A stretch of DNA of 64,000 nt from Aquabacterium sp. (GTDB lineage Bacteria > Pseudomonadota > Gammaproteobacteria > Burkholderiales > Burkholderiaceae_C). The DNA is taken from positions 868,001 to 932,000 of the forward strand of contig NZ_JACPYU010000003.1 in NCBI RefSeq assembly GCF_016195855.1, read 5' to 3'. Positions 1 to 45,526 of this stretch are shown here, one piece after another. The notes below the pieces were generated by a model. That model saw only the letters and a list, made by a program, of their open reading frames with translations, was not told the DNA's origin and did no database searches. Every line of letters begins with the position of its first letter. The first letter of the stretch is position 1. The translations under genes and the position numbers were made by a program.

Positions 1-2674
1 AGACCAGCAGCACGCACAGCGGGAACACATAGATCATCGTGTTGCCGGCCAGGATCTCCTGATAAGTCAGGTCGGTCCACTCGAAGTTCACGCCCTTGGG
101 CAAGGTCTCCGCGGCGATCTTCTCCATGATGGCCTGGGCCTGGCCCGAGGAGACCCCCGGCGCAGGACCACCGTTGATGTCAGCCGCCACATAGGCGTTG
201 TAACGCTGCACGCGGTCCGGGCCATACGAATCCGACACCTTCATCAGGCTGCCCAGCGGCACCATCTCACCCGAGTTGCTGCGCACCTTGAGTTGCGAGA
301 TGGCTTCCGCGTTGCTGCGGAAAGGCGCATCGGCCTGCACGACGACCTGGAAGGTCCGACCGAACTTGTTGAAGTCGTTCGTATAGAGCGAGCCCAGGTT
401 GATCTGCAGCGTGTCGAAGATGCTGCCCAGCGGCACGCCCATCTGCTTGGCCTTCGTGCGGTCCACGTCGGCAAAGAGTTGCGGCACATTGATCTGGTAG
501 CTGCTGAACACACCAGCGAGCTGCGGGGTCTGCCAGGCCTTCATCTGCAAGGCCTGCACGCCCTTGTAGAGCTCGTCGTAGCCCACGTTGCCGCGGTCCT
601 CGACGAAAAGCTTGAAGCCGCCGATGGTGCCCAGGCCATTCACGGAAGGCGGCGGGAAGACCATGATGAAGGCGTCCTGGATCGCGCCCAGGCGCTTGTT
701 GACCTCGGCCGCAATGGCACCGCCCGACAGCGACGGGTCCTTGCGGTTCTTGAAGTCATCGAGCGTGTAGAACACGATGCCGGCGTTGGGCGCATTCGTG
801 AAGCCGTTGATCGACAGACCCGGGAAGGCCACCGATTCCTTCACGCCCGGCACCGACTTCACGATGTCCGACATGCGACGGATCACGGCGTCCGTGCGCT
901 CCAGCGAGGCGGCATCAGGCAGCTGCGCGAAGCCCACCAGGTACTGCTTGTCCTGTGCCGGCACGAAGCCCGAAGGCACCTGCCTGAACACGAAGAACGC
1001 CGCCACGCACAGCAGCAGGTAGACGCCCATGGTCGCGGCCTTGTGGCTCAGCGTGCCACGGACACCGCCCTGGTAGTTGTGCGAAGCCCGGTCGAACACG
1101 CGGTTGAAGCGCTTGAAGAAACCGCCGAGCACCTTGTCCATCAGGCGCGACAAGGCGTCCTTGGGCGCGTCATGCGGCTTGAGCAGCGTGGCGGCCAAAG
1201 CCGGCGACAGCGTCAGCGAGTTGAAGGCCGAGATCACGGTCGAGATCGCGATCGTCAGCGCGAACTGGCGATAGAACTGGCCTGTGAGGCCCGACACGTA
1301 GGCGATGGGCACGAACACCGCGCACAGCACCAGCGCGATCGCGATGATGGGCCCGGACACTTCCTTCATCGCCTGGATGGTCGCGTCGCGCGGACTCAAG
1401 CCATTGGCGATGTTGCGCTCGACGTTCTCGACCACCACGATGGCATCGTCCACCACGATGCCGATGGCCAGCACGAGGCCGAACAGCGACAGCGTGTTGA
1501 TCGAGAAGCCAAAGCCCAGCAGCACGGCAAACGTCCCCACGATGGACACAGGCACGGCCAGCAGCGGGATCAGCGAAGCGCGCCAGGTCTGCAGGAACAC
1601 GATCACGACCAGCACGACCAGGGCCACGGCCTCGGTCAGCGTCTTGATCACGGCCTTGATGGAGTCGCCCACGAACTGCGTCGGGTCGTACACGATCGTG
1701 TAGTCGACGTCGGCCGGGAAGTCCTTCTTGAGTTCGTCCATGGCCTTGCGCACATCGGCGGACAACTGCAGCGCGTTCGAATTGGGCGCCTCGAAGATGC
1801 CCATGCCGATGGCCGGCTTGTTGTTGAGCAGCGAGCGCAGTGCGTACTGGTTCGAACCCAGCTCGATGCGGGCCACGTCACGCAGGTGCGTCACGCCACC
1901 GTCGGCACTCGTCTTGACGATGATGTTGCCGAACTCCTCTTCCGTGCTCAGGCGACCGGATGCATTCACGGACAGCTGGAACGGAGCCTTGGTGTCGGGC
2001 GGTGCCCCCACCACGCCGGCGGCCACCTGCACGTTCTGCTCGCGGATCGCCGCCACCACATCGCCGGCTGTCAACCCGCGCTGCGCCACCTTCTGGGGGT
2101 CCAGCCACACGCGCATGGCGTAGTCGCCGGCACCGAAGATCTGCACGTCGCCCATGCCGGGCAGACGCGCCAGGCGGTCCTTCACATTGAGCGTCGCGTA
2201 GTTGCGCAGATAGACATCGTCATACGTGCCCTTGGGCGAGAGCAAGTGCACGACCAGCGTCAGATTGGGCGAGCTTTTGACCGTCGTCACGCCGATCTGG
2301 CGCACTTCTTCGGGCAGTCGCGGCAAAGCGCGCTGCACACGGTTCTGCACCTGCGTCTCGGCCTGCTCGACGTTCGTGCCGATCTTGAAGGTGACCGTCA
2401 GCGTCAGCGAACCATCGGTGGTCGCTTGCGAGGACATGTAGAGCATGTTCTCGACGCCGTTGATCTGCTCCTCCAGTGGCGCGGCCACGGTCTCGGCGAT
2501 CACCTTGGGGTTCGCGCCCGGAAACTGCGCGCGCACCACGACCGAGGGTGGCACCACCTCCGGATACTCGGAGACCGGCAGACGAAAGATCGCGATCAAC
2601 CCCGCGATGAAGATGAAGATGGACAGCACGGCCGCGAAGATCGGCCTGTCCACAAAGGTTCTGGATATGTTCAT
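1..2674 (-). CDS. RND multidrug efflux permease (CeoB/BpeF/AcrB type), 3' end outside window
   Basis: Inner-membrane proton/drug antiporter of the hydrophobe/amphiphile (HAE1) family. The translation starts MNISRTFVDRPIFAAVLS and stays open to the window edge, giving about 891 of the usual ~1040-1060 residues. The first membrane helix lies near residues 10-30. The proton-relay aspartate pair in VVDDAIVVVENVERN falls at D409/D410, matching AcrB D407/D408. The start lies 18 bp after the stop of the adaptor gene, so the two are co-transcribed. The operon with a lipase-like gene and a divergent LysR gene matches the Burkholderia CeoAB-OpcM and BpeEF-OprC pumps, which export chloramphenicol, trimethoprim and quinolones. 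Substrates here are inferred only. An outer-membrane factor gene would be expected just beyond position 1. Confidence 0.95.
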   Translation of the reverse strand, partial: MNISRTFVDRPIFAAVLSIFIFIAGLIAIFRLPVSEYPEVVPPSVVVRAQFPGANPKVIAETVAAPLEEQINGVENMLYMSSQATTDGSLTLTVTFKIGTNVEQAETQVQNRVQRALPRLPEEVRQIGVTTVKSSPNLTLVVHLLSPKGTYDDVYLRNYATLNVKDRLARLPGMGDVQIFGAGDYAMRVWLDPQKVAQRGLTAGDVVAAIREQNVQVAAGVVGAPPDTKAPFQLSVNASGRLSTEEEFGNIIVKTSADGGVTHLRDVARIELGSNQYALRSLLNNKPAIGMGIFEAPNSNALQLSADVRKAMDELKKDFPADVDYTIVYDPTQFVGDSIKAVIKTLTEAVALVVLVVIVFLQTWRASLIPLLAVPVSIVGTFAVLLGFGFSINTLSLFGLVLAIGIVVDDAIVVVENVERNIANGLSPRDATIQAMKEVSGPIIAIALVLCAVFVPIAYVSGLTGQFYRQFALTIAISTVISAFNSLTLSPALAATLLKPHDAPKDALSRLMDKVLGGFFKRFNRVFDRASHNYQGGVRGTLSHKAATMGVYLLLCVAAFFVFRQVPSGFVPAQDKQYLVGFAQLPDAASLERTDAVIRRMSDIVKSVPGVKESVAFPGLSINGFTNAPNAGIVFYTLDDFKNRKDPSLSGGAIAAEVNKRLGAIQDAFIMVFPPPSVNGLGTIGGFKLFVEDRGNVGYDELYKGVQALQMKAWQTPQLAGVFSSYQINVPQLFADVDRTKAKQMGVPLGSIFDTLQINLGSLYTNDFNKFGRTFQVVVQADAPFRSNAEAISQLKVRSNSGEMVPLGSLMKVSDSYGPDRVQRYNAYVAADINGGPAPGVSSGQAQAIMEKIAAETLPKGVNFEWTDLTYQEILAGNTMIYVFPLCVLLV

Positions 2675-2692
2675 GTCCTCACTCCGTGGGGA

Positions 2693-3928
2693 TTAGGGCT
2701 TGGCGGCCGAAGCCGACGCTGCGGGCGCATCCATGGGCACCACCTGCGGCGCCACCGGCACCCCCGGGCGCACGCGCTGCAGGCCATCGACGACCACGCG
2801 CTCACCCGGCTTCAGGCCCGACAGCACCACGCGCAACTCGCCCACGCTCGTCCCCAGCTGCACCGGGCGGTACTCGGTCTGGTTGGCAGCCGACACCACA
2901 TAGACGAACTTGCGGTTCTGGTCCGTGCCGACGGCCCGCTCCAGCACCAGCGGCGACGCCGCACCGTTGTGCGTATCCGCACCCAGCTGGACCTTGGCGA
3001 ACAGGCCCGGCGTCAGCAAGCCATCCTTGTTGTCGACCACGGCGCGCATGCGCACGCTACCGGCCTGCGGGTCAATCTGGTTGTCGACGAACTCAAGGCG
3101 CCCCTCATGCGGGAAGCCCTGCTCATTGGCCAGGCCCACATGCAGCTTGAGCGCACCCGGCGTGCTGCGCACGAGCTTGCCCACCTGCAGGTACATGGAC
3201 TCGTCGCCATTGAAGCTCACATACATGGGGTTGGCCGACACGACCGTGGTCAGCACGGTGTTGCCGTCCACCAGGTTGCCCGCGGTGACCTCGGCCTTGC
3301 CCACGCGGCCGTCAAAGGGCGCACGCACGCTGGTCCATTCCAGATTGAGCCGTGCGGTCTGCAGCGCAGCCTGATCGGCCAGCACGGCCGTCTCGAGCTG
3401 GCGCGCATTGGCCGAGCGCTCGTCGTAGTCGCGCTGGGCGATCGCGTTGTCATCGAGCAGGCGCTTGGAGCGTGCCAGCTCGGTCTGCGCCAGCGCCAGC
3501 TTGACCTTGGAGCTCGCCACCGCGGCCTCCAGCCGCGCCATCTCGGCCTGATACGGACGCGGGTCGATCACGAAGAGCACCTCGCCCTTCTTGACGAGGC
3601 TGCCTGGCTGAAAGCGCACGCTGTCGAGCGTGCCCGCCACACGCGGGCGCACCTGGGCCTTGTCGATGGCCTCGACGAGCCCGGAGAACTCGCGCAGCTC
3701 GGCCACGGGGCGCGCGATGACCTCGGCCACGCTCACAGGCATGGCGGGCGGCGCACCACCGGGGGCCGGGGCGGCATGCGCATCTTGTCCCTGCCCACAA
3801 CCGGCCAATGAACCGATCACAGCCAGCGACACCAGGGAGCCCAGCAACCAGGCCGAACGGGACGCATGCGACAGACGGAATCCCGCGGCAAGCGGGCGTA
3901 ACAGGGATGACAGGTTGTTCAGGTTCAT
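2693..3928 (-). CDS. RND efflux periplasmic adaptor (membrane fusion protein), lipoprotein
   Basis: Periplasmic adaptor (MexA/AcrA/CeoA type, 411 residues) linking the RND pump to an outer-membrane channel. The ATG at 3928 is preferred over the longer reading frame because GAGGTAA lies 5 nt upstream. The N-terminus carries a signal segment ending in a lipobox (SLAGC, Cys44), so the protein is probably lipid-anchored in the inner membrane. Then come the barrel-sandwich half-motif (IDKAQVRPRVAGTLDSV), an alpha-hairpin and beta-barrel (WTSVRAPFDGRVGKAEVT), and an Ala/Pro/Ser-rich tail. It is the middle gene of the minus-strand operon between the lipase-like gene and the pump. Confidence 0.95.
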   Translation of the reverse strand: MNLNNLSSLLRPLAAGFRLSHASRSAWLLGSLVSLAVIGSLAGCGQGQDAHAAPAPGGAPPAMPVSVAEVIARPVAELREFSGLVEAIDKAQVRPRVAGTLDSVRFQPGSLVKKGEVLFVIDPRPYQAEMARLEAAVASSKVKLALAQTELARSKRLLDDNAIAQRDYDERSANARQLETAVLADQAALQTARLNLEWTSVRAPFDGRVGKAEVTAGNLVDGNTVLTTVVSANPMYVSFNGDESMYLQVGKLVRSTPGALKLHVGLANEQGFPHEGRLEFVDNQIDPQAGSVRMRAVVDNKDGLLTPGLFAKVQLGADTHNGAASPLVLERAVGTDQNRKFVYVVSAANQTEYRPVQLGTSVGELRVVLSGLKPGERVVVDGLQRVRPGVPVAPQVVPMDAPAASASAAKP

Positions 3929-4020: not shown

Positions 4021-4839
4021 TCAAGCAGCGGGGACCAGGAAGCGTTTCATCGCCAGGACACAAGGGTCGTCGGACGTGAGTTCGCAGCGGTCTTTGTTGT
4101 CGTGCAGCTCGGGCGGTGGCGGCAAAGCCACCTCATGGACTTCATTACCGGCCTGCCGCAACTTCGCGGCATAGGCCAAAGCCTCGTCGGACAGCGGATC
4201 TCCCTCCGTGTGCATGATGAGCGAAGGCGGAAGACCTGACAGCCGACTGGCATTCAATGGACTGGCGTAGGGATGCAGACGGTCGGCGGGGTGCGGCAGG
4301 TAACGGCGGTAGGCCTGGGTCACGGCCTCCACCATATCCCGCTTGCTGGGATCGCCCATCGCACACTGCATCGACGGACACCGCAAGTTCGCGTCCAGCA
4401 TGGGCATGATCAGGATCTGCCCGGCCAGTCCAGGCCCGCGCCGATCCCGGCTCACCAGCGCCGATACCGCCGCCAGATTGCCACCCGCTTCCACACCGCC
4501 CACATAGAGGCGTCGCCCCGACCATCCGAGCTGGCGACGCTGCTTGCCCACCTGCATCAGCACGCTGTGTGCGTCCTCCACGGCGGCCGGGAAAGGACGT
4601 TCAGGTGCCAGGGCATAGCGGGGCGCCAGGATGTTCACGGCACAGGCATTGGCCAGCACGCGCAGACAGCCATCGGCTTCATCGAGCTCGTCGACCACAA
4701 AACCACCTGGGGCAAAGAACACCACCAATGCCTCAGCCTGCGTCACGCCTCCCCGGTAGAGGCGCAGTTGCAGCGGACCGCTGTGCCCCTGCCATTCAAG
4801 CAGGTCGTCGGGCCCGGGAGAGGTGTCGGTCGGGTTCAT
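4021..4839 (-). CDS. LlpE-like alpha/beta hydrolase-fold protein, catalytic serine and oxyanion motif lost
   Basis: A 272-residue protein of the hormone-sensitive-lipase (HSL) alpha/beta hydrolase family, seen from the spacing of its motifs and the conserved segment RYALAPERPFPAAVEDA. The family catalytic motifs are degenerate: the HGGG oxyanion motif reads A43-P-G-G, and the GDSAGG nucleophile elbow reads G115-V-E-A-G-G, with Glu117 where Ser is expected. An acidic motif EGDPLSDEA remains. It is first in the operon ahead of the RND adaptor, 92 bp upstream. That is the position of llpE in the Burkholderia ceo and bpe loci. It is unlikely to be an active serine esterase; a ligand-binding or vestigial role is possible. 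The assignment as an llpE counterpart rests on gene order and fold. Confidence 0.85.
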   Translation of the reverse strand: MNPTDTSPGPDDLLEWQGHSGPLQLRLYRGGVTQAEALVVFFAPGGFVVDELDEADGCLRVLANACAVNILAPRYALAPERPFPAAVEDAHSVLMQVGKQRRQLGWSGRRLYVGGVEAGGNLAAVSALVSRDRRGPGLAGQILIMPMLDANLRCPSMQCAMGDPSKRDMVEAVTQAYRRYLPHPADRLHPYASPLNASRLSGLPPSLIMHTEGDPLSDEALAYAAKLRQAGNEVHEVALPPPPELHDNKDRCELTSDDPCVLAMKRFLVPAA

Positions 4840-8623: not shown

Positions 8624-9679
8624 CTATGGCAAACGCATGCGGCCTGCAGCCGGATACTCGATGCTGCCGAAATAGAGCGTGCCGTCGAATTCCCGCACGC
8701 TGGTGATGGGCGCGTAAGCGGTGGGTTGATCGTCTTGCAGATCGACCTGCACCTTGCCATTCATGTCGAGCCTCAGCACATGCGCCACTTTTTTCGCCTT
8801 CGGCTGAAGCGCCTGAGGGATGCGATAGGCCGCCTTGAGCAGTGCAGGATACGGGAGCAACGCATCCAGCAAGGCATCTCTGGGCGCATACAAAGCTAGC
8901 CAGTATCCGTCTCGACCATTGAAGCTGATGTTGTCAGGAAAGCCGGGCAGGTTGTCGATGAAGACCTCTTTCTGGCCGGCTTTGGCGCCCTTCAACCAAT
9001 AGCGCCAGACGCGGTAGGACAAGGTTTCCGACACGAGGATGTAGCTCTCATCAGGCGCCAACGCGACACCGTTGGCGACATGCAGTCCCTTCATCAGAAC
9101 GGTGACTTTCCTGCTGACAGGATCGTATTGCAGCAAGCGCCCGTTCGCGCCGTGCTCGAACACGTCCGACATCATCTTGTCGATGCCGAATTTGGACGAT
9201 GCATCGGAGAAGTAGATCTTGCGTGAGGGGCCTTGAACAACATCATCGGTCAAGCGAAAGGGAATACCTTCCGCTTGCGTTGCCAGCGTGCTGACACGGC
9301 CTCCCTCGATGTTCAGAAGCCCTTTGATGGCGTCTGCCACCAGCACGCTCTGACCATCTGCAGAAGCGTATGTTCCCCATGGGCGGCCCCTTGTGTTGGC
9401 CAGAACATCGACATGTTGGCCATCACTTGAGAAGCGCACCACACGCCCATCCAGGTAGCCAGCATAGACCCGACCGCTGGCATCCAGTGATATGCCCTCC
9501 GGTCCTGTGCCCTGATTCGCGGCCATGCGTTCGATTGAGGCCAGACTGCCTTTGGTAACGGCAGTGGATGGTGCCTGGGCAGGCGGTTCCCAGCCAACGG
9601 GCGCGATGTCCACGGGCCAAAGGCTGAAGTACGCCAGCAGCGCTGTGCCTGCCGCTGCGGCGACAAAGATCTTTCGCAT
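8624..9679 (-). CDS. SMP-30/strictosidine-synthase-like beta-propeller hydrolase, membrane-anchored
   Basis: A 351-residue protein. The N-terminus MRKIFVAAAAGTALLAYFSL is a signal anchor or signal peptide. The rest is a six-bladed-propeller protein of the strictosidine synthase / gluconolactonase superfamily (APMAP-like), with landmarks GPEGISLDASGRVYAG, GLHVANGVALAPDESYILV and LPGFPDNISFNGRDGYWLAL. Bacterial members are mostly calcium-dependent lactonases or arylesterases; none is a true strictosidine synthase. It starts 15 bp after the phytanoyl-CoA-dioxygenase-family gene and forms an operon with it. Next to a Baeyer-Villiger enzyme, a lactone-opening role is an attractive inference but unproven. 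Confidence 0.82.
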   Translation of the reverse strand: MRKIFVAAAAGTALLAYFSLWPVDIAPVGWEPPAQAPSTAVTKGSLASIERMAANQGTGPEGISLDASGRVYAGYLDGRVVRFSSDGQHVDVLANTRGRPWGTYASADGQSVLVADAIKGLLNIEGGRVSTLATQAEGIPFRLTDDVVQGPSRKIYFSDASSKFGIDKMMSDVFEHGANGRLLQYDPVSRKVTVLMKGLHVANGVALAPDESYILVSETLSYRVWRYWLKGAKAGQKEVFIDNLPGFPDNISFNGRDGYWLALYAPRDALLDALLPYPALLKAAYRIPQALQPKAKKVAHVLRLDMNGKVQVDLQDDQPTAYAPITSVREFDGTLYFGSIEYPAAGRMRLP

Positions 9680-9694
9680 CTGAGAGGCCCCTGG

Positions 9695-10702
9695 TTACTT
9701 CGTCTGTTGATTCGCTGCCGGCCCGATCTTCGAGGGATCGCCCCAGGTCTGGCGCGGCGCAATGGTCGACTTGTTGCCGCTCAGTTCCAGCTTGACGGCG
9801 GAGACGGCGTTGTGGATCGCCGAGCCAATCATCTTGTGCGGTTGCTCATGTTCGATCTGCACGCGCGCTGCACGCTCTGCGGGATCATGGTGCGGCAGGA
9901 TGATCGGGAATGCCGCGCCTTTCAATGGACCACCAGGCTGGGCGTCATGTCGGAAGTGAATAGGCATGCGCTTGGCGCCAGGCTCGTAGGTCACGTCATC
10001 GCCAGTCCAGCGCAGCGCCAGCGCGCGCCTCGGTGTCGTGCGGGACTTGTTGCCAAACGAGCCGTGCAGCGTGAGGGGGTGAAACATCAGGATGTCGCCC
10101 GGTTCCATGTCCCAGTGGAGCAGGTCGTACTGGTCCGGGTTGGCGTTGATGTCGGGAATGTCGTCTGCCTTTTCATCGATCAGCGCGGCCACATAGTCGG
10201 GTGACAAGGCCTTGAAGCGTTGCGGCCACTTGTGTGAACCCTTCACATACAACAGCCCGCTGTTTTCGGTCGTCACCGGATTCAAGGGGATCCAGAACGA
10301 GGTGATCTGTTCGCCGCGAATGGGCCAGAAGGTCAAGTCCTGGTGCCAAGGGGTAGGCGCATCCGTGCCCGGTTCCTTGATGAACATCTGGTCATAAAAG
10401 AAGCGGACCTCTTCGGACCTCATCAAGTCCTTGGCCCACCGGGCAAAGGGGCCGTAGTAGATCAGGTCGCGCAGCACGTCGATACGCTTCCACAAGAAGA
10501 TGTCCATCTTGTAGCCCTCTGTCTTGCGGGACATGAACTTGCCTGTCACAGATTGGGCGTTGCGGGCCTCTTCAACACCTCGCTCCACCATCTCCACCCA
10601 GTTCTTGTCCAGCGCACCTTTGAGCATGATGACCCCATCCTCGTCGTAGCACCGGAGTTCTTCGGCTGTGAGTTGACGTGAGGGAAAAGCAGGAAAACCC
10701 AT
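9695..10702 (-). CDS. Phytanoyl-CoA dioxygenase (PhyH)-family Fe(II)/2-oxoglutarate oxygenase
   Basis: A 335-residue non-haem iron oxygenase. The iron-binding HxD is visible in PTPWHQDLTFWP, and the distal histidine with the 2-oxoglutarate arginine lie in FHPLTLHGSFGNKSRTTPRR. The family hydroxylates unactivated carbon, with phytanoyl-CoA as the type substrate; bacterial members act on varied lipids and small molecules. It is the first gene of a two-gene operon with the SMP-30-like protein and is divergent from a TetR gene across a 133-bp AT-rich region with dyads. The actual substrate is unknown. Confidence 0.88.
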   Translation of the reverse strand: MGFPAFPSRQLTAEELRCYDEDGVIMLKGALDKNWVEMVERGVEEARNAQSVTGKFMSRKTEGYKMDIFLWKRIDVLRDLIYYGPFARWAKDLMRSEEVRFFYDQMFIKEPGTDAPTPWHQDLTFWPIRGEQITSFWIPLNPVTTENSGLLYVKGSHKWPQRFKALSPDYVAALIDEKADDIPDINANPDQYDLLHWDMEPGDILMFHPLTLHGSFGNKSRTTPRRALALRWTGDDVTYEPGAKRMPIHFRHDAQPGGPLKGAAFPIILPHHDPAERAARVQIEHEQPHKMIGSAIHNAVSAVKLELSGNKSTIAPRQTWGDPSKIGPAANQQTK

Positions 10703-12566: not shown

Positions 12567-13484
12567 TCAGCGGTGAAGAAACTTCAACTGGTGCGCCAGC
12601 ACTTCAGGAAACAGCGGATCGAAGTAGGGGTCGAAATGATTGGCATCGATCTCGATCACCTGCACATTGGGGTTTCCGACGCGGCGGACTTTGTCGGACA
12701 CGAAAGGCGCGACGGTGTCCCCCATGGCGCCAATCATCAGCATGGGGATCTTGACGTCCTTCAGGCGCAGCCACGGGCGATAGAAAGGCATGGTGAGCAC
12801 AGACTGCGCGGCAACGCGGTTGTCGTAGCTGCGGTCCTTCCAGGCGGCCAGTGCGATCTCCATGGCATCCCAGGCGCCATCGCGGTCCATGGTGGCGAAC
12901 TCGCCTTCGCGAGCCAAGGTCGGAACGTAGATCTGCGCGCCAGGCTTGATCTGGTCCCACATGCCAAGAGCGATCAGCTTCATGAGCCTGACAGGCGGCG
13001 TGGCGAGCGTCGCGGCCAGGCCATCGAGCATTGGCACCTGGATGATGGCGCCCTTCAGTTCAGGATGCTGAGATGCCAGATCCACCACATGCCCGCCGCC
13101 AAAGGATGTGCCCCACAGCGTGATCTGGTGCGCCGCCACCATGGGGTGGGACTTCAGGTGAGCAAGCGCGGTATCAGCGACGCGAGTGCGACGCCACGGA
13201 TTGATGCCCTGTCTGGGGAAGCCGCCGCTGTCTCCCCATCCTGGGTAATCAAACTCCATCACGGCGAAGCCCGCCTCAACAAAGCTGTGAGTGAACGACG
13301 AGGTCAGCGCCCGCTGAATGCTGCCCCAGCCACCCAGCATGAGGATGGTGGCCAGCTCTTGATCGGGGTCGGCATCTTGCGGCACATATAGTGTGGCGCC
13401 GCACAGTGCGCCCTCCGCCGTGAAAGTGGACTTGATTGCGCGCAGGCGCACATGCGAGGTATCGGGGTAACGGCGAGACTTCAC
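12567..13484 (-). CDS. alpha/beta hydrolase downstream of the BVMO-esterase fusion
   Basis: A 305-residue serine hydrolase. The nucleophile elbow is LWGTSFGGGH (GxSxG), the acid is likely in MLMIGAMGDTVAPF and the histidine is in EIDANHFDPYFD. The fold resembles dienelactone-hydrolase / acyl-peptidase-like enzymes. The reading frame starts at a GTG (13484) with GGAAT upstream. It follows the fused monooxygenase-esterase by 76 bp on the same strand, so the two are probably co-transcribed across an intercistronic hairpin. A second ester- or lactone-cleaving step in the same pathway is inferred. Confidence 0.83.
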   Translation of the reverse strand: MKSRRYPDTSHVRLRAIKSTFTAEGALCGATLYVPQDADPDQELATILMLGGWGSIQRALTSSFTHSFVEAGFAVMEFDYPGWGDSGGFPRQGINPWRRTRVADTALAHLKSHPMVAAHQITLWGTSFGGGHVVDLASQHPELKGAIIQVPMLDGLAATLATPPVRLMKLIALGMWDQIKPGAQIYVPTLAREGEFATMDRDGAWDAMEIALAAWKDRSYDNRVAAQSVLTMPFYRPWLRLKDVKIPMLMIGAMGDTVAPFVSDKVRRVGNPNVQVIEIDANHFDPYFDPLFPEVLAHQLKFLHR

Positions 13485-13560: not shown

Positions 13561-16038
13561 TTAAAGCGCCATGGCCTTGGAGATGGGACAGCCCTCGACC
13601 TCGTGCCAGGCATATCGAGGTGCTTGCGACTGCGTTCTTTGAGCGGCGAAAGTGGCCAGGCGGCTCACCGCATTTGTGGCAGAGGCAAGGTATGCGGCTT
13701 GCAGCTGGAACACATGCCAACGGCCTGCATACACCTCCAGCCTGCAAGGTACCCCGCAATGCGCCGCGCGTGCATTCAACCTGGTCGAATCGGACTCAAG
13801 CACCTCCTCGTCACCCACCTGAATCAGCATGGGGGGAAGGCCGTGCAGATCCGCTTCCAGCAAGTGCGATCCTTTGACCGGTTCATACCAGCGCACGGCT
13901 TGTTTGAGCCAGGCCACATTGAGCATGGGGTCAAGCGCCGATGCGGATTGAATCGTCCCCCCTGACAAGGTCGGGTCCAGGAAGGGCGACAGCAGCATCA
14001 GTCCTGCGGGCAAGGGCTCGCCCGTGTCACGCAGCCTCAGCGCCAATGTCAGGGCCAGGCCGCCGCCAGCGGAATCACCACACACCACGATCTGATGGGG
14101 CGCAACACCGCGCTTGAGCAAGGTGCGATAGCAGGCCAGCGCGTCCTCGACAGCGGCAGGCTGAGGATGTTCCGGTGCGAGGCGGTATTGCGGAACCCAG
14201 ACCGTCATGCCGGTGGCGGCAAGGCGCGTCGTCAAGCTGCGATGCGTTCGGGCGCTGCCCACGCAAAAGCCCCCGCCATGCAAATAGAGAATCGTTGCCC
14301 CCTTCTTTTGGGCTTGTCTTGGGGTGATCACTTCCGTGGTCATGCCATCAACCTCATGGCGCGCGATATGCACGCGTCGATCGCTGGGCATGAGGTACGA
14401 CAAGGTGCTCACGATGAGACGTTGTGCACCGACCCCAACGGGCGGTCGAATGAAGGCCTTGAACGTCATGCGCAGGAGCGACCTCAGCATGCTGGCCCTG
14501 AAAGACTCCAGCAAGCCAGGCGGTTCAGCATGCCGCACCACATTGCCAGCGCCGCGGCGAGGCTCGATGAAGTTGTAGGCGTTGAGCGACGAGTACCGCG
14601 TGAGCCAACGGTATCCAAAGGTGAAGCCCGGCCAGTTGGTGCTGTTATGCCCGTTCGCATCAACGTACCAGCTCTTGCAGCCTTGCCATACTGTGGCGGC
14701 CAGGCGTTCCTGCACCTTGCCATTGAAGCTGGCGTAGCGTTGCGCATCGACTTCAACCGCGTTCGCGCAGGCCTTGTGAGCAGCTTTCATGCACCTCAGC
14801 ACATGTGCGATCTGGCTTTCGAGCATGTAGATGATCGAGCTGTGGCCCAGGTTCGTGTTGGGGCCATAGAGCATGAAGAAATTGGGGAAGCCTGGAACCG
14901 TCATGCCCAGATAGGCTTGAGCGCCCTTGCGCCACGCATCATTGAGCTCCATGCCATCCCGGCCGGTGATCGTCATGGGTGCCAGGAATTCGGTGGCCGC
15001 GAAGCCGGTGCCGTAGACAATCGCGTCCACGGTGTGATGCTGTCCATCTGCCGTCTCGATGCCATCGGACGTGATGCGGCGTATGCCCTGCGTGACCACG
15101 TTCACGTTGGGCTTGGCCATGGTGGCCAGATAGTCGTTGGACAGCAGGATGCGCTTGCAACCGATGGGGTAGTCCGGCGTCAGCTTGGCGCGCAGGCTGG
15201 CGTCCTTCACTTGTCGATGCAGCAGTGCCTTGAACGGCAGGCCCACCGCCAGATCCATCAAGGCCTTGACGCGCGTGAATCCGACCGCCCGACCTTCGTA
15301 TTGGGAATAGATACGGGCTCTGTGCAGTTTCATGGTCCAAGGCGCCATCTTGAACAAGGCCTTGCGCCATCCCGCATACGGCCCATCTGGGCGAGGCAGG
15401 ATGTAGGCGGCCGAGCGTTGGAACACGGTCAGCTTGCTCACCTGGCCAACAATGGCGGGCACGAACTGGATGGCCGACGCCCCTGTGCCGACCACCGCGA
15501 CGCGCTTGCCCTTCAGGTCATGGCCGTGGTCCCAGTGGGCGGAGTGGCAGACATGCCCCTGGAAGCTTTCCATGCCTTCCAGCTTGGGATAGACGGGGCG
15601 GCTGAGTTGCCCCGTGGCCGTGACAACAAAACGGGCTTGCAGGACCTGGCCGTTGGCCAGGATCACGGTCCACAGCGCGAGTTCCTCGTGGTAGTGGGCT
15701 TGAGCCACCTCGCAGCCAAAGCGGATGGATGGCAGCAGGCCGTATTTCTCGGCACAGTGTTTCAGGTATTGGTGGATCTCGGCCTGCGGTGCAAAGACCC
15801 TGGACCAATTTGGATTGGGTTCGAACGAGAACGAATACAAGTGCGACGGCACGTCGCACGCGGCACCTGGATAGGTGTTGTCTCGCCAGACGCCGCCGAC
15901 ATCGTTTTGCTTTTCAAGAATGAGGAAGTCGCCAAGGCCGGCCTTCTTCAATGCGACCGCCATCCCGATTCCCGCAAAGCCGGATCCGATGATGATGGTG
16001 TGAAAGGTGGCGCTGGCGTCCGAGCCGATGCTTTGCAT
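13561..16038 (-). CDS. fused Baeyer-Villiger flavin monooxygenase and HSL-type esterase
   Basis: An 825-residue two-domain protein. Residues 1 to about 500 are a class B flavoprotein monooxygenase: FAD site IIIGSGFAGIG (15-25), Baeyer-Villiger fingerprint FQGHVCHSAHW (159-169, fits FxGxxxHxxxW) and NADPH site VAVVGTGASAI (180-190). Residues about 530-825 are an HSL-family esterase: LYLHGGGF (His587), GDSAGG with nucleophile Ser656, acid in VGDEEVLESD and histidine in GRWHVFQ. All catalytic elements of both halves are intact. The expected sequence is ketone to ester or lactone, then hydrolysis to acid plus alcohol. These activities are usually encoded by separate adjacent genes. It is divergent from an AraC regulator and followed by another hydrolase. 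Confidence 0.92.
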   Translation of the reverse strand: MQSIGSDASATFHTIIIGSGFAGIGMAVALKKAGLGDFLILEKQNDVGGVWRDNTYPGAACDVPSHLYSFSFEPNPNWSRVFAPQAEIHQYLKHCAEKYGLLPSIRFGCEVAQAHYHEELALWTVILANGQVLQARFVVTATGQLSRPVYPKLEGMESFQGHVCHSAHWDHGHDLKGKRVAVVGTGASAIQFVPAIVGQVSKLTVFQRSAAYILPRPDGPYAGWRKALFKMAPWTMKLHRARIYSQYEGRAVGFTRVKALMDLAVGLPFKALLHRQVKDASLRAKLTPDYPIGCKRILLSNDYLATMAKPNVNVVTQGIRRITSDGIETADGQHHTVDAIVYGTGFAATEFLAPMTITGRDGMELNDAWRKGAQAYLGMTVPGFPNFFMLYGPNTNLGHSSIIYMLESQIAHVLRCMKAAHKACANAVEVDAQRYASFNGKVQERLAATVWQGCKSWYVDANGHNSTNWPGFTFGYRWLTRYSSLNAYNFIEPRRGAGNVVRHAEPPGLLESFRASMLRSLLRMTFKAFIRPPVGVGAQRLIVSTLSYLMPSDRRVHIARHEVDGMTTEVITPRQAQKKGATILYLHGGGFCVGSARTHRSLTTRLAATGMTVWVPQYRLAPEHPQPAAVEDALACYRTLLKRGVAPHQIVVCGDSAGGGLALTLALRLRDTGEPLPAGLMLLSPFLDPTLSGGTIQSASALDPMLNVAWLKQAVRWYEPVKGSHLLEADLHGLPPMLIQVGDEEVLESDSTRLNARAAHCGVPCRLEVYAGRWHVFQLQAAYLASATNAVSRLATFAAQRTQSQAPRYAWHEVEGCPISKAMAL

Positions 16039-16172
16039 GTTATGAAGCCCAAAAATGCGACGAAAGGTCTGCTCTGTGAGGGCGAATCATGCGCAAAACC
16101 ACCGCCATTGAGAATGTTGACTAAGGACAAAGGCTTTATGATTTGGGCCACGCACATTGGTATTCACCCTTC

Positions 16173-17207
16173 ATGAGCTTTTGGGATTTCAAGCGCAGTT
16201 CGGCGAGCGTTCGGCTTTTGGTTGAGTTCGGCCAAGAGCAGGGGCTGGACATCTCCAAGATCCTGGTTCGCTCCCGCCTGAACGAAATCGATCTGACCGA
16301 TCCGGCCATGGAACTCGATGCCAGTCAGGAACTGTGTGTGGTGGGCAACCTCATCCGCGCGTGCAGGCAGCCGGGGCTGGGGTTGGAAGTCGGCATGCGC
16401 TACAACTTCGCGTCATACGGGCTGTGGGGCCTGGGCTTGATCAGCAGCGCCACGGCGGGCGATGCCTTGGCGCTTGCCTTGCGGTTCATTCCTTTGACCT
16501 TCGCCTTCTGCCGCATCTCGGGCGGGCTGGATGGTGAGATGTGCACGGTGACGTTCGAGGCGCCGGACGTCGAGCCTGCGGTCCAGCGCTTTTTGGTCGA
16601 GCGGGATGTGGCAGCGGCTTCACGGCTGATGAAAGAGACGCTGGGACCAGACTTCACCTTGTCTCGGTTCACCCTCAAGCACACCATCCAGCCCGGTTCA
16701 GCCTTGTTGGCCGACCTTCCGCGCATGGGAGGCGTCCGCCCCGAGTTCGGTGCGGCCAGCAACAGCTTGTCATTTGACCGCAAGCTCTTGGATCTGCGGC
16801 TGCCTCAAGCCAATCCAGTCACGGTGGCCATGTGCGAGCGAGCCTGCGAGGAATTGATGGAACGCCGCCGTGCCCGCTTGGGTACGGGCGAATGCGTCCG
16901 CCAGTATCTGGCTGCCGCCCCCCTCAACATGACGCCGGACCTGCCCCAGGCTGCGCGCACGCTGGGCCTCAGCGACAGGACACTGAAACGGCGGCTACAA
17001 GATGAAGGCGTTTCGTACAGGATGCTGCTGGCCGAAGTGCGCGGCCGCCAGGCCAATGAGTTGCTGGCGGATGAAACGTTGTCGCTGACCCAGATCGCCG
17101 AGCGCATGGGCTTCAGTGACCTGTCCAGCTTCTCTCAGGCTTACAAAAGGTGGTTCGGTGTTGCGCCGAGTATGGGGCGATACAGCGCTCTTGACAGCGC
17201 ATCATGA
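16173..17207 (+). CDS. AraC-family regulator divergent from BVMO-esterase
   Basis: A 344-residue AraC-type activator. The N-terminal effector domain (about residues 15-200) belongs to the arabinose-binding-domain group seen in OruR-like regulators. The C-terminal double helix-turn-helix is at about 240-340 (AARTLGLSDRTLKRRLQDEG, then IAERMGFSDLSSFSQAYKRW). The ATG at 16173 is preferred because upstream codons give an atypical N-terminus. It faces away from the BVMO-esterase gene across 134 bp, an arrangement common for inducible BVMO operons, so it probably senses the ketone or a product. Confidence 0.92.
   Translation: MSFWDFKRSSASVRLLVEFGQEQGLDISKILVRSRLNEIDLTDPAMELDASQELCVVGNLIRACRQPGLGLEVGMRYNFASYGLWGLGLISSATAGDALALALRFIPLTFAFCRISGGLDGEMCTVTFEAPDVEPAVQRFLVERDVAAASRLMKETLGPDFTLSRFTLKHTIQPGSALLADLPRMGGVRPEFGAASNSLSFDRKLLDLRLPQANPVTVAMCERACEELMERRRARLGTGECVRQYLAAAPLNMTPDLPQAARTLGLSDRTLKRRLQDEGVSYRMLLAEVRGRQANELLADETLSLTQIAERMGFSDLSSFSQAYKRWFGVAPSMGRYSALDSAS

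Positions 17208-39472: not shown

Positions 39473-45520
<6,048 letters not shown>

Positions 45521-45526
<6 letters not shown>

Follow-up and report, generated by a model that had tools for sequence, protein, structure and literature searches.

One predicted protein from Aquabacterium sp. joining a Baeyer-Villiger monooxygenase and a hormone-sensitive-lipase-type esterase: a conserved, one-chain form of known enzyme pairs

Within the window analysed here, i.e., a stretch of 64,000 nucleotides from Aquabacterium sp. whose positions are used throughout, one gene of the minus strand (13561..16038, ATG to TAA) encodes a type I Baeyer-Villiger monooxygenase (BVMO) followed, after a short linker, by a hormone-sensitive-lipase-type (HSL) esterase. 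This 825-aa fusion is real and conserved and looks functional; judged from sequence, it appears to be a natural one-chain form of already known BVMO-esterase pairs. We consider it probable that it is a bifunctional enzyme cleaving C-C bonds in two steps, which arose once from an overlapping gene pair and serves ketone or sub-terminal oxidation.

AcmA/AcmB, MekA/MekB and ChnB/ChnA are pairs of separate BVMO and esterase proteins. Others are SadD with SadA/SadB of Acinetobacter, in ketone and sub-terminal alkane catabolism (PMC12753306), and the BVMO and esterase of Thalassolituus oleivorans, described in sub-terminal oxidation (PMC6304351). As far as the accessible text of both papers describes them, these systems have the same expected order of reactions as the fusion (BVMO, then ester hydrolase), but they consist of two proteins instead of one chain, and the likeness is one of description, not of sequence. 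No published report of a natural BVMO-esterase fusion was found in searches of open-licence literature. Laboratory fusions of a BVMO with an alcohol dehydrogenase do exist (PMC5624969), which, like the natural one, contain a BVMO in a two-enzyme chain; in the accessible part of that source they are designed and join the BVMO to the preceding step, whereas the natural fusion joins it to the following one.

The fused frame and its catalytic motifs

The original prediction had placed a BVMO and an HSL esterase in one chain at 13561..16038, and the gene was recovered at exactly these coordinates, on the minus strand (as are all the features of this section) and with 825 aa. No stop codon interrupts the 825 codons of 13561-16038, nor does one separate the halves of any of the other 38 BVMO-first fusions described below. 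The BVMO half comprises residues 1-490 (14569..16038), as delimited by Pfam and PDB relatives, with the boundary taken from relatives without HSL; hmmscan against Pfam assigns Pyr_redox_3 to residues 15-209 and FMO-like to residues 15-216. Its FAD-binding GxGxxG motif (GSGFAG, residues 18-23, 15970..15987) keeps the three glycines in 39/39 BVMO-first fused proteins. The BVMO fingerprint FxGxxxHxxxW(D) (residues 159-170, 15529..15564) shows F in 38/39, G in 39/39, H in 38/39, W in 39/39 and D in 36/39 of them, and the second Rossmann motif, for NADPH (GTGASA, residues 184-189, 15472..15489), has both glycines in all 39. Arg296 (15151..15153), present in 39/39, aligns with Arg342 of steroid monooxygenase 4ap3, which we take to be the active-site Arg. 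Lys295-Arg296 is as invariant among the 39 proteins as the FAD and NADPH glycines, His587, Ser656 and His775. Two Rossmann GxGxx(G/A) motifs flanking FxGxxxHxxxW(P/D), together with a conserved Arg after the NADPH domain, place this half among type I BVMOs, and the solved enzymes of this type (steroid, cyclohexanone and phenylacetone monooxygenase) share the two Rossmann motifs, the fingerprint and the conserved Arg with the fusion.

The linker spans about residues 491-508 (14515..14568, approximate limits) and is considered short because the match to the PDB chain 9izt begins already at residue 515. The HSL half with its N-terminal region extends over about residues 509-801 (13636..14514) according to the PDB matches and to Abhydrolase_3 (residues 583-778, E 1.1e-48); EstD11 (7at3) matches from about residue 548. 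The esterase looks complete from its sequence, including the region before HGGG. In the oxyanion-hole motif HGGG (residues 587-590, 14269..14280), H, G and G occur in 39/39 proteins, with A in 28 and G in 11 at the fourth position. The nucleophile Ser656 of the motif GDSAGG (14062..14079) is present in 39/39 and aligns with Ser144 of EstD11. The candidate triad acid Glu745 (13804..13806; E in 38/39, D in 1) aligns with residue 238 of EstD11, Asp750 (13789-13791; 38/39) is an alternative candidate, and His775 (13714..13716; 39/39) is the candidate triad histidine. HGG(G/A), GDSAGG and the candidate acid and His follow each other in the order of family IV bacterial HSL esterases, and EstD11 and 9izt share these motifs and positions; they are stand-alone proteins of about 300 aa, whereas the HSL of the fusion is half of one chain. 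The best NCBIfam subfamily for this half, GESAG_HSLs, scored 229 bits against a cut-off of 430, i.e., below membership. Among the best 60 of 178 PDB matches, flavin proteins of 432-655 aa matched over the flavin half, and other, stand-alone chains matched the esterase half. All the catalytic motifs that had been predicted (the FAD site, residues 159-169, the NADPH site, His587 and Ser656) are thereby found at the named residues. BVMO-esterase operon pairs are two separate neighbouring genes and this is one gene; the fusion is a fused variant of such a pair and would work like one.

Distribution and gene neighbourhood

A search for other two-domain proteins and a comparison of their surroundings (GMC oxidoreductase, AraC-type regulator and the hydrolase AB1), as the original prediction had proposed, gave a main BVMO-first family of 38 non-duplicate proteins: 10 from the genus of the window, 26 from Burkholderiaceae and 2 from elsewhere. 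In a set of 100 relatives including the window's own genome, full-length matches were present in 10/42 genomes of the window's genus and, beyond it, in one genome of the same family (G056, 57% identity) and one of the same order (G062, 55%). Among Burkholderiaceae, with up to three candidates scored per genome, 23/249 genomes carry the fusion at 61-66% identity, and three records of a plasmid collection contributed fused proteins. In 99 records of this collection a locus spans 80% or more of the query, in some cases as separate neighbouring genes, and the best-ranked matches belong to Burkholderia; the copy of B. glumae is annotated as "alpha/beta hydrolase fold domain-containing protein." In 398 phylum-wide and 399 order-wide genomes, with two candidates scored per genome and distant or reversed fusions showing as two pieces, the stop-free single matches through both halves were, among the matches listed, the window's own and that of G062. 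The fusion seems rare outside the genus and Burkholderiaceae; outside Pseudomonadota, the coverage comprised the close-relative scan, the plasmid and phage collections and one further genome. Three matches (G932:C24, G1057:C1 and G908:C1; 35-45%) extend into the HSL half or across it and contain stop codons. A candidate single fused match in G181 (34% across both halves, five stops inside) was rejected, as it actually consists of two separate frames.

Loci were classed by the presence or absence of a single stop-free frame common to BVMO and HSL. Removal of 29 duplicates (L033-L049, L065-L067, L070-L077, L082) from 138 BVMO loci left 109 (L064 was excluded as too weak): 39 BVMO-first fusions, three HSL-first fusions, 13 adjacent pairs in the order BVMO-HSL, one adjacent pair in the reverse order, and 53 loci without an HSL found, where "alone" refers to the absence of an HSL from that strand of the sequence examined, the flank being only about 1.5 kb for many lone copies. 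Since full-length relatives occur in many other genomes, chance and assembly error are excluded as the source of the joined frame. The same one-frame architecture recurs in many assemblies and several genera, and the probability that an assembly or frameshift artefact underlies it is practically negligible.

A divergent AraC-type regulator (16143..17207, plus strand; Pfam Arabinose_bd and HTH_18) stands beside the fused gene and most of the unfused BVMO orthologues, and the next gene on the other side, AB1 (12567..13484, minus strand), encodes a second alpha/beta hydrolase (Pfam Hydrolase_4/Peptidase_S15). AB1 follows the BVMO in 10/10 fused loci of the genus and in 9/11 unfused ones. A GMC oxidoreductase gene lies directly upstream of the fusion in 25 of the 26 Burkholderiaceae loci and also in G062; in B. 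glumae, a divergent AraC gene, an aldehyde dehydrogenase gene and the GMC gene precede the fusion in this order. No GMC gene lies beside the window's fusion, where AB1 is found instead. A GMC gene precedes the lone BVMO of G177, and a short-chain dehydrogenase lies downstream of the fusion in G056. An Acinetobacter contig (L173, CAKLQF020000036.1) carries AraC, BVMO, dehydrogenase, HSL ("mlhB") and "choD" as separate genes; filed as Acinetobacter phage, it also holds porin and transporter genes and looks like host DNA.

Other genes of the window deserve mention in their own right. A stand-alone Abhydrolase_3 esterase with an adjoining LysR regulator lies about 9 kb from the fusion (4021-4839, minus strand), and 8624-10702 (minus strand) holds a strictosidine-synthase/SMP-30-like gene next to one resembling phytanoyl-CoA dioxygenase, accompanied by a divergent TetR regulator. 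Farther away, the frame at 39473-45526 (plus strand, 2017 aa) matches the UvrA interaction and UvrA DNA-binding domains and contains several ATPase stretches, which suggests a UvrA of double length; a putative coding frame of 1172 aa (293-3811, plus strand) has no Pfam match at E 1e-5.

Origin of the fusion and loss of the esterase half

In the HSL tree (86 rows; L143-L146 and HSL matches below about 150 query residues were also left out), a single clade (SH-aLRT 97) unites 38 of the 39 BVMO-first HSL halves, with one subclade for the window's genus (98) and another for all other members (96). One founding fusion is well supported by this single clade, and a single fusion most likely founded the family. 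The BVMO tree (109 rows) contains a 57-row clade (100) of the same 38 fused proteins and 19 lone copies; its neighbouring branch comprises 10 adjacent BVMO-HSL pairs and two lone copies, with moderate support (86; union 91). The HSL tree places a different adjacent pair nearest to the fused clade (L091, L093; support 80). It also joins G056 and G062 to Burkholderiaceae, while these two branch earlier in the BVMO tree. Both trees are quick ones and contain long rows.

The two steps had been expected to be normally carried out by two adjacent gene products, and the relatives do have adjacent, often overlapping genes: an ATG for the HSL precedes the BVMO stop codon by 14 nt in 9/12 adjacent loci, according to predicted starts, and one more has an ATGA junction (12 of the 13 adjacent BVMO-HSL loci were checked, L103 being left out). 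The ancestor would have had overlapping genes, BVMO and then HSL, presumably translationally coupled, and a small frame change within such an overlap would bring both into one frame. This ancestral fusion would go back to a common ancestor of the Burkholderiaceae carriers and the window's genus, and would have been passed on as a unit afterwards. Outside the main fused clades of both trees stand the HSL-first fusions (loci L092, L105 and L099, in G342, G048 and G404), in which Pfam finds Abhydrolase_3 first and the flavin domain second, and a remote BVMO-first fusion in G456 (L098, the 39th of its kind), whose nearest row in both trees is the HSL-first L099, on long branches. The HSL-first fusions arose separately.

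Orthologous BVMOs without HSL (75-87% identity) occur in 11 genomes of the window's genus; in the sequence examined, nine are flanked by AraC and AB1, one by AraC only and one by neither. More careful trees of 26 rows, which also contained L024 (lone) and four fused loci of Burkholderiaceae, require at least seven changes between fused and lone states (6-8 in 5-95% of bootstraps); well-supported branches force three (DNA) or six (protein) changes, with many branches unresolved, and these counts alone are blind to the direction, gain or loss. The direction, fused first and lone later, comes from L017 (G011), whose lone BVMO ends in AGDPLARAIAR where fused proteins have AGDPIARAMAF or similar, with 8/10 aligned residues identical. 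Its tail scored 43 against a maximum of 41 in 500 shuffles and, in this one case, reads as the scar of an in-frame deletion of the esterase; among the 11 lone C-terminal tails, nine showed no scar and that of L020 was left out. The spacing of L017 to AB1 (41 nt) equals that of two fused loci, and also that of three scarless lone copies. The esterase half was probably lost, and repeatedly so; the L017 scar and the grouping of the fused HSLs in one clade speak against repeated separate gains of the same HSL. No relocated esterase was found in 16 genomes without fused HSL (20 genomes were searched, with a completeness of only 75% for G032 and 86% for G040), the best-scoring match being 40-45% identical. 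The idea that a spare hydrolase always adjoins when HSL is missing was rejected by a domain search of neighbouring genes, which found no hydrolase family in the tested neighbours of L018, L021, L024, L030, L031, L032, L094 and L100 (a subset of neighbours, from a simple frame picker). The lone BVMO orthologue L016 (G040) has an in-frame TAG and is a pseudogene or an assembly error. L018, L038 and L039 each carry a further BVMO (about 48% identical) a few kb past the first; in L018 and L038 an HSL-like gene in another frame comes after it (in L018, about 4-6 kb further on).

Purifying selection acts on both halves. In eight pairs of same-genus fusions, dN/dS was 0.058-0.155 for the BVMO and 0.093-0.235 for the HSL; residues 491-550, linker included, reached 0.128-0.519 and were the highest region in 7/8 pairs. 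The scattering of lone orthologues among fused ones within the genus could suggest an esterase half on its way out that no longer matters in this genome, but the HSL motifs are intact and the HSL dN/dS in the three pairs involving the window is low (0.093-0.131, at a high dS of 0.90-1.09 for this half, dS in these pairs being 0.63-1.16), and such decay is very improbable.

Predicted function and significance

The BVMO half would use NADPH and O2, via FAD, to insert an oxygen beside the carbonyl of a ketone, and the resulting ester or lactone would be hydrolysed by the HSL half to an acid and an alcohol. The enzyme would serve sub-terminal oxidation or ketone catabolism under control of the AraC-type regulator. 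In Burkholderiaceae the upstream GMC oxidoreductase would supply the ketone, in a pathway leading from alcohol to ketone, to ester, and to acid plus alcohol. We infer these two reactions and their substrates from the domains and motifs, and the fusion would bring the benefit of equal amounts, closeness and perhaps channelling. The gene context (GMC, aldehyde dehydrogenase and the Acinetobacter cluster) fits C-C cleavage. The prediction of a one-protein C-C cleaving machine is thus partly supported, by intact motifs, by the adjacent genes of relatives and by gene context, but not as to strict coupling: the esterase half, or its coupling, is dispensable, because 11 same-genus orthologues do without HSL. 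Two of these 11 also lack AB1 nearby, which counts against the bifunctional reading, as do the missing GMC gene at the window and its presence at the lone BVMO of G177, the disagreement between the BVMO and HSL trees, and the score of the HSL half below the NCBIfam cut-off. A stronger version would have the esterase docked to the oxygenase for direct transfer of the ester, in a machine built several times in both orders and repeatedly dismantled; it is conceivable but doubtful.

AB1 could do the hydrolysis instead. Both halves might be active, though not on each other's product, with the fusion fixing only equal amounts or location, the HSL half working on different esters, and AB1 or other esterases cleaving the BVMO product; that AB1 follows the gene at each of the genus's 10 fused loci and is retained at nine of the 11 without HSL speaks for this. 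Fusions in both orders and overlapping adjacent genes, however, indicate that the two steps belong together and are consecutive, and the 26 Burkholderiaceae loci gave one weak AB1 match (32%, in L116, some 0.8 kb past the HSL), the flank being at most about 1.5 kb in 23 of them. We regard such separate products as unlikely. BVMOs oxidise heteroatoms too, and substrates cannot be read from the sequence, so the flavin half might instead be an N or S monooxygenase with the esterase as a detoxifying side activity; the BVMO fingerprint, whose W is followed by D in 36/39 proteins, the Arg aligned with Arg342 of 4ap3 and the GMC oxidoreductase neighbours make this very unlikely. The two-step cleavage of ketones by one bifunctional chain remains the preferred explanation.

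Engineers join enzymes by hand for cascades; here, an oxygenase seems to have been linked naturally, and long ago, to the enzyme that acts next. Fused, split and esterase-less natural versions would allow measuring whether fusion speeds two-step C-C cleavage, and the family could offer single-gene catalysts for converting ketones into acids and alcohols.
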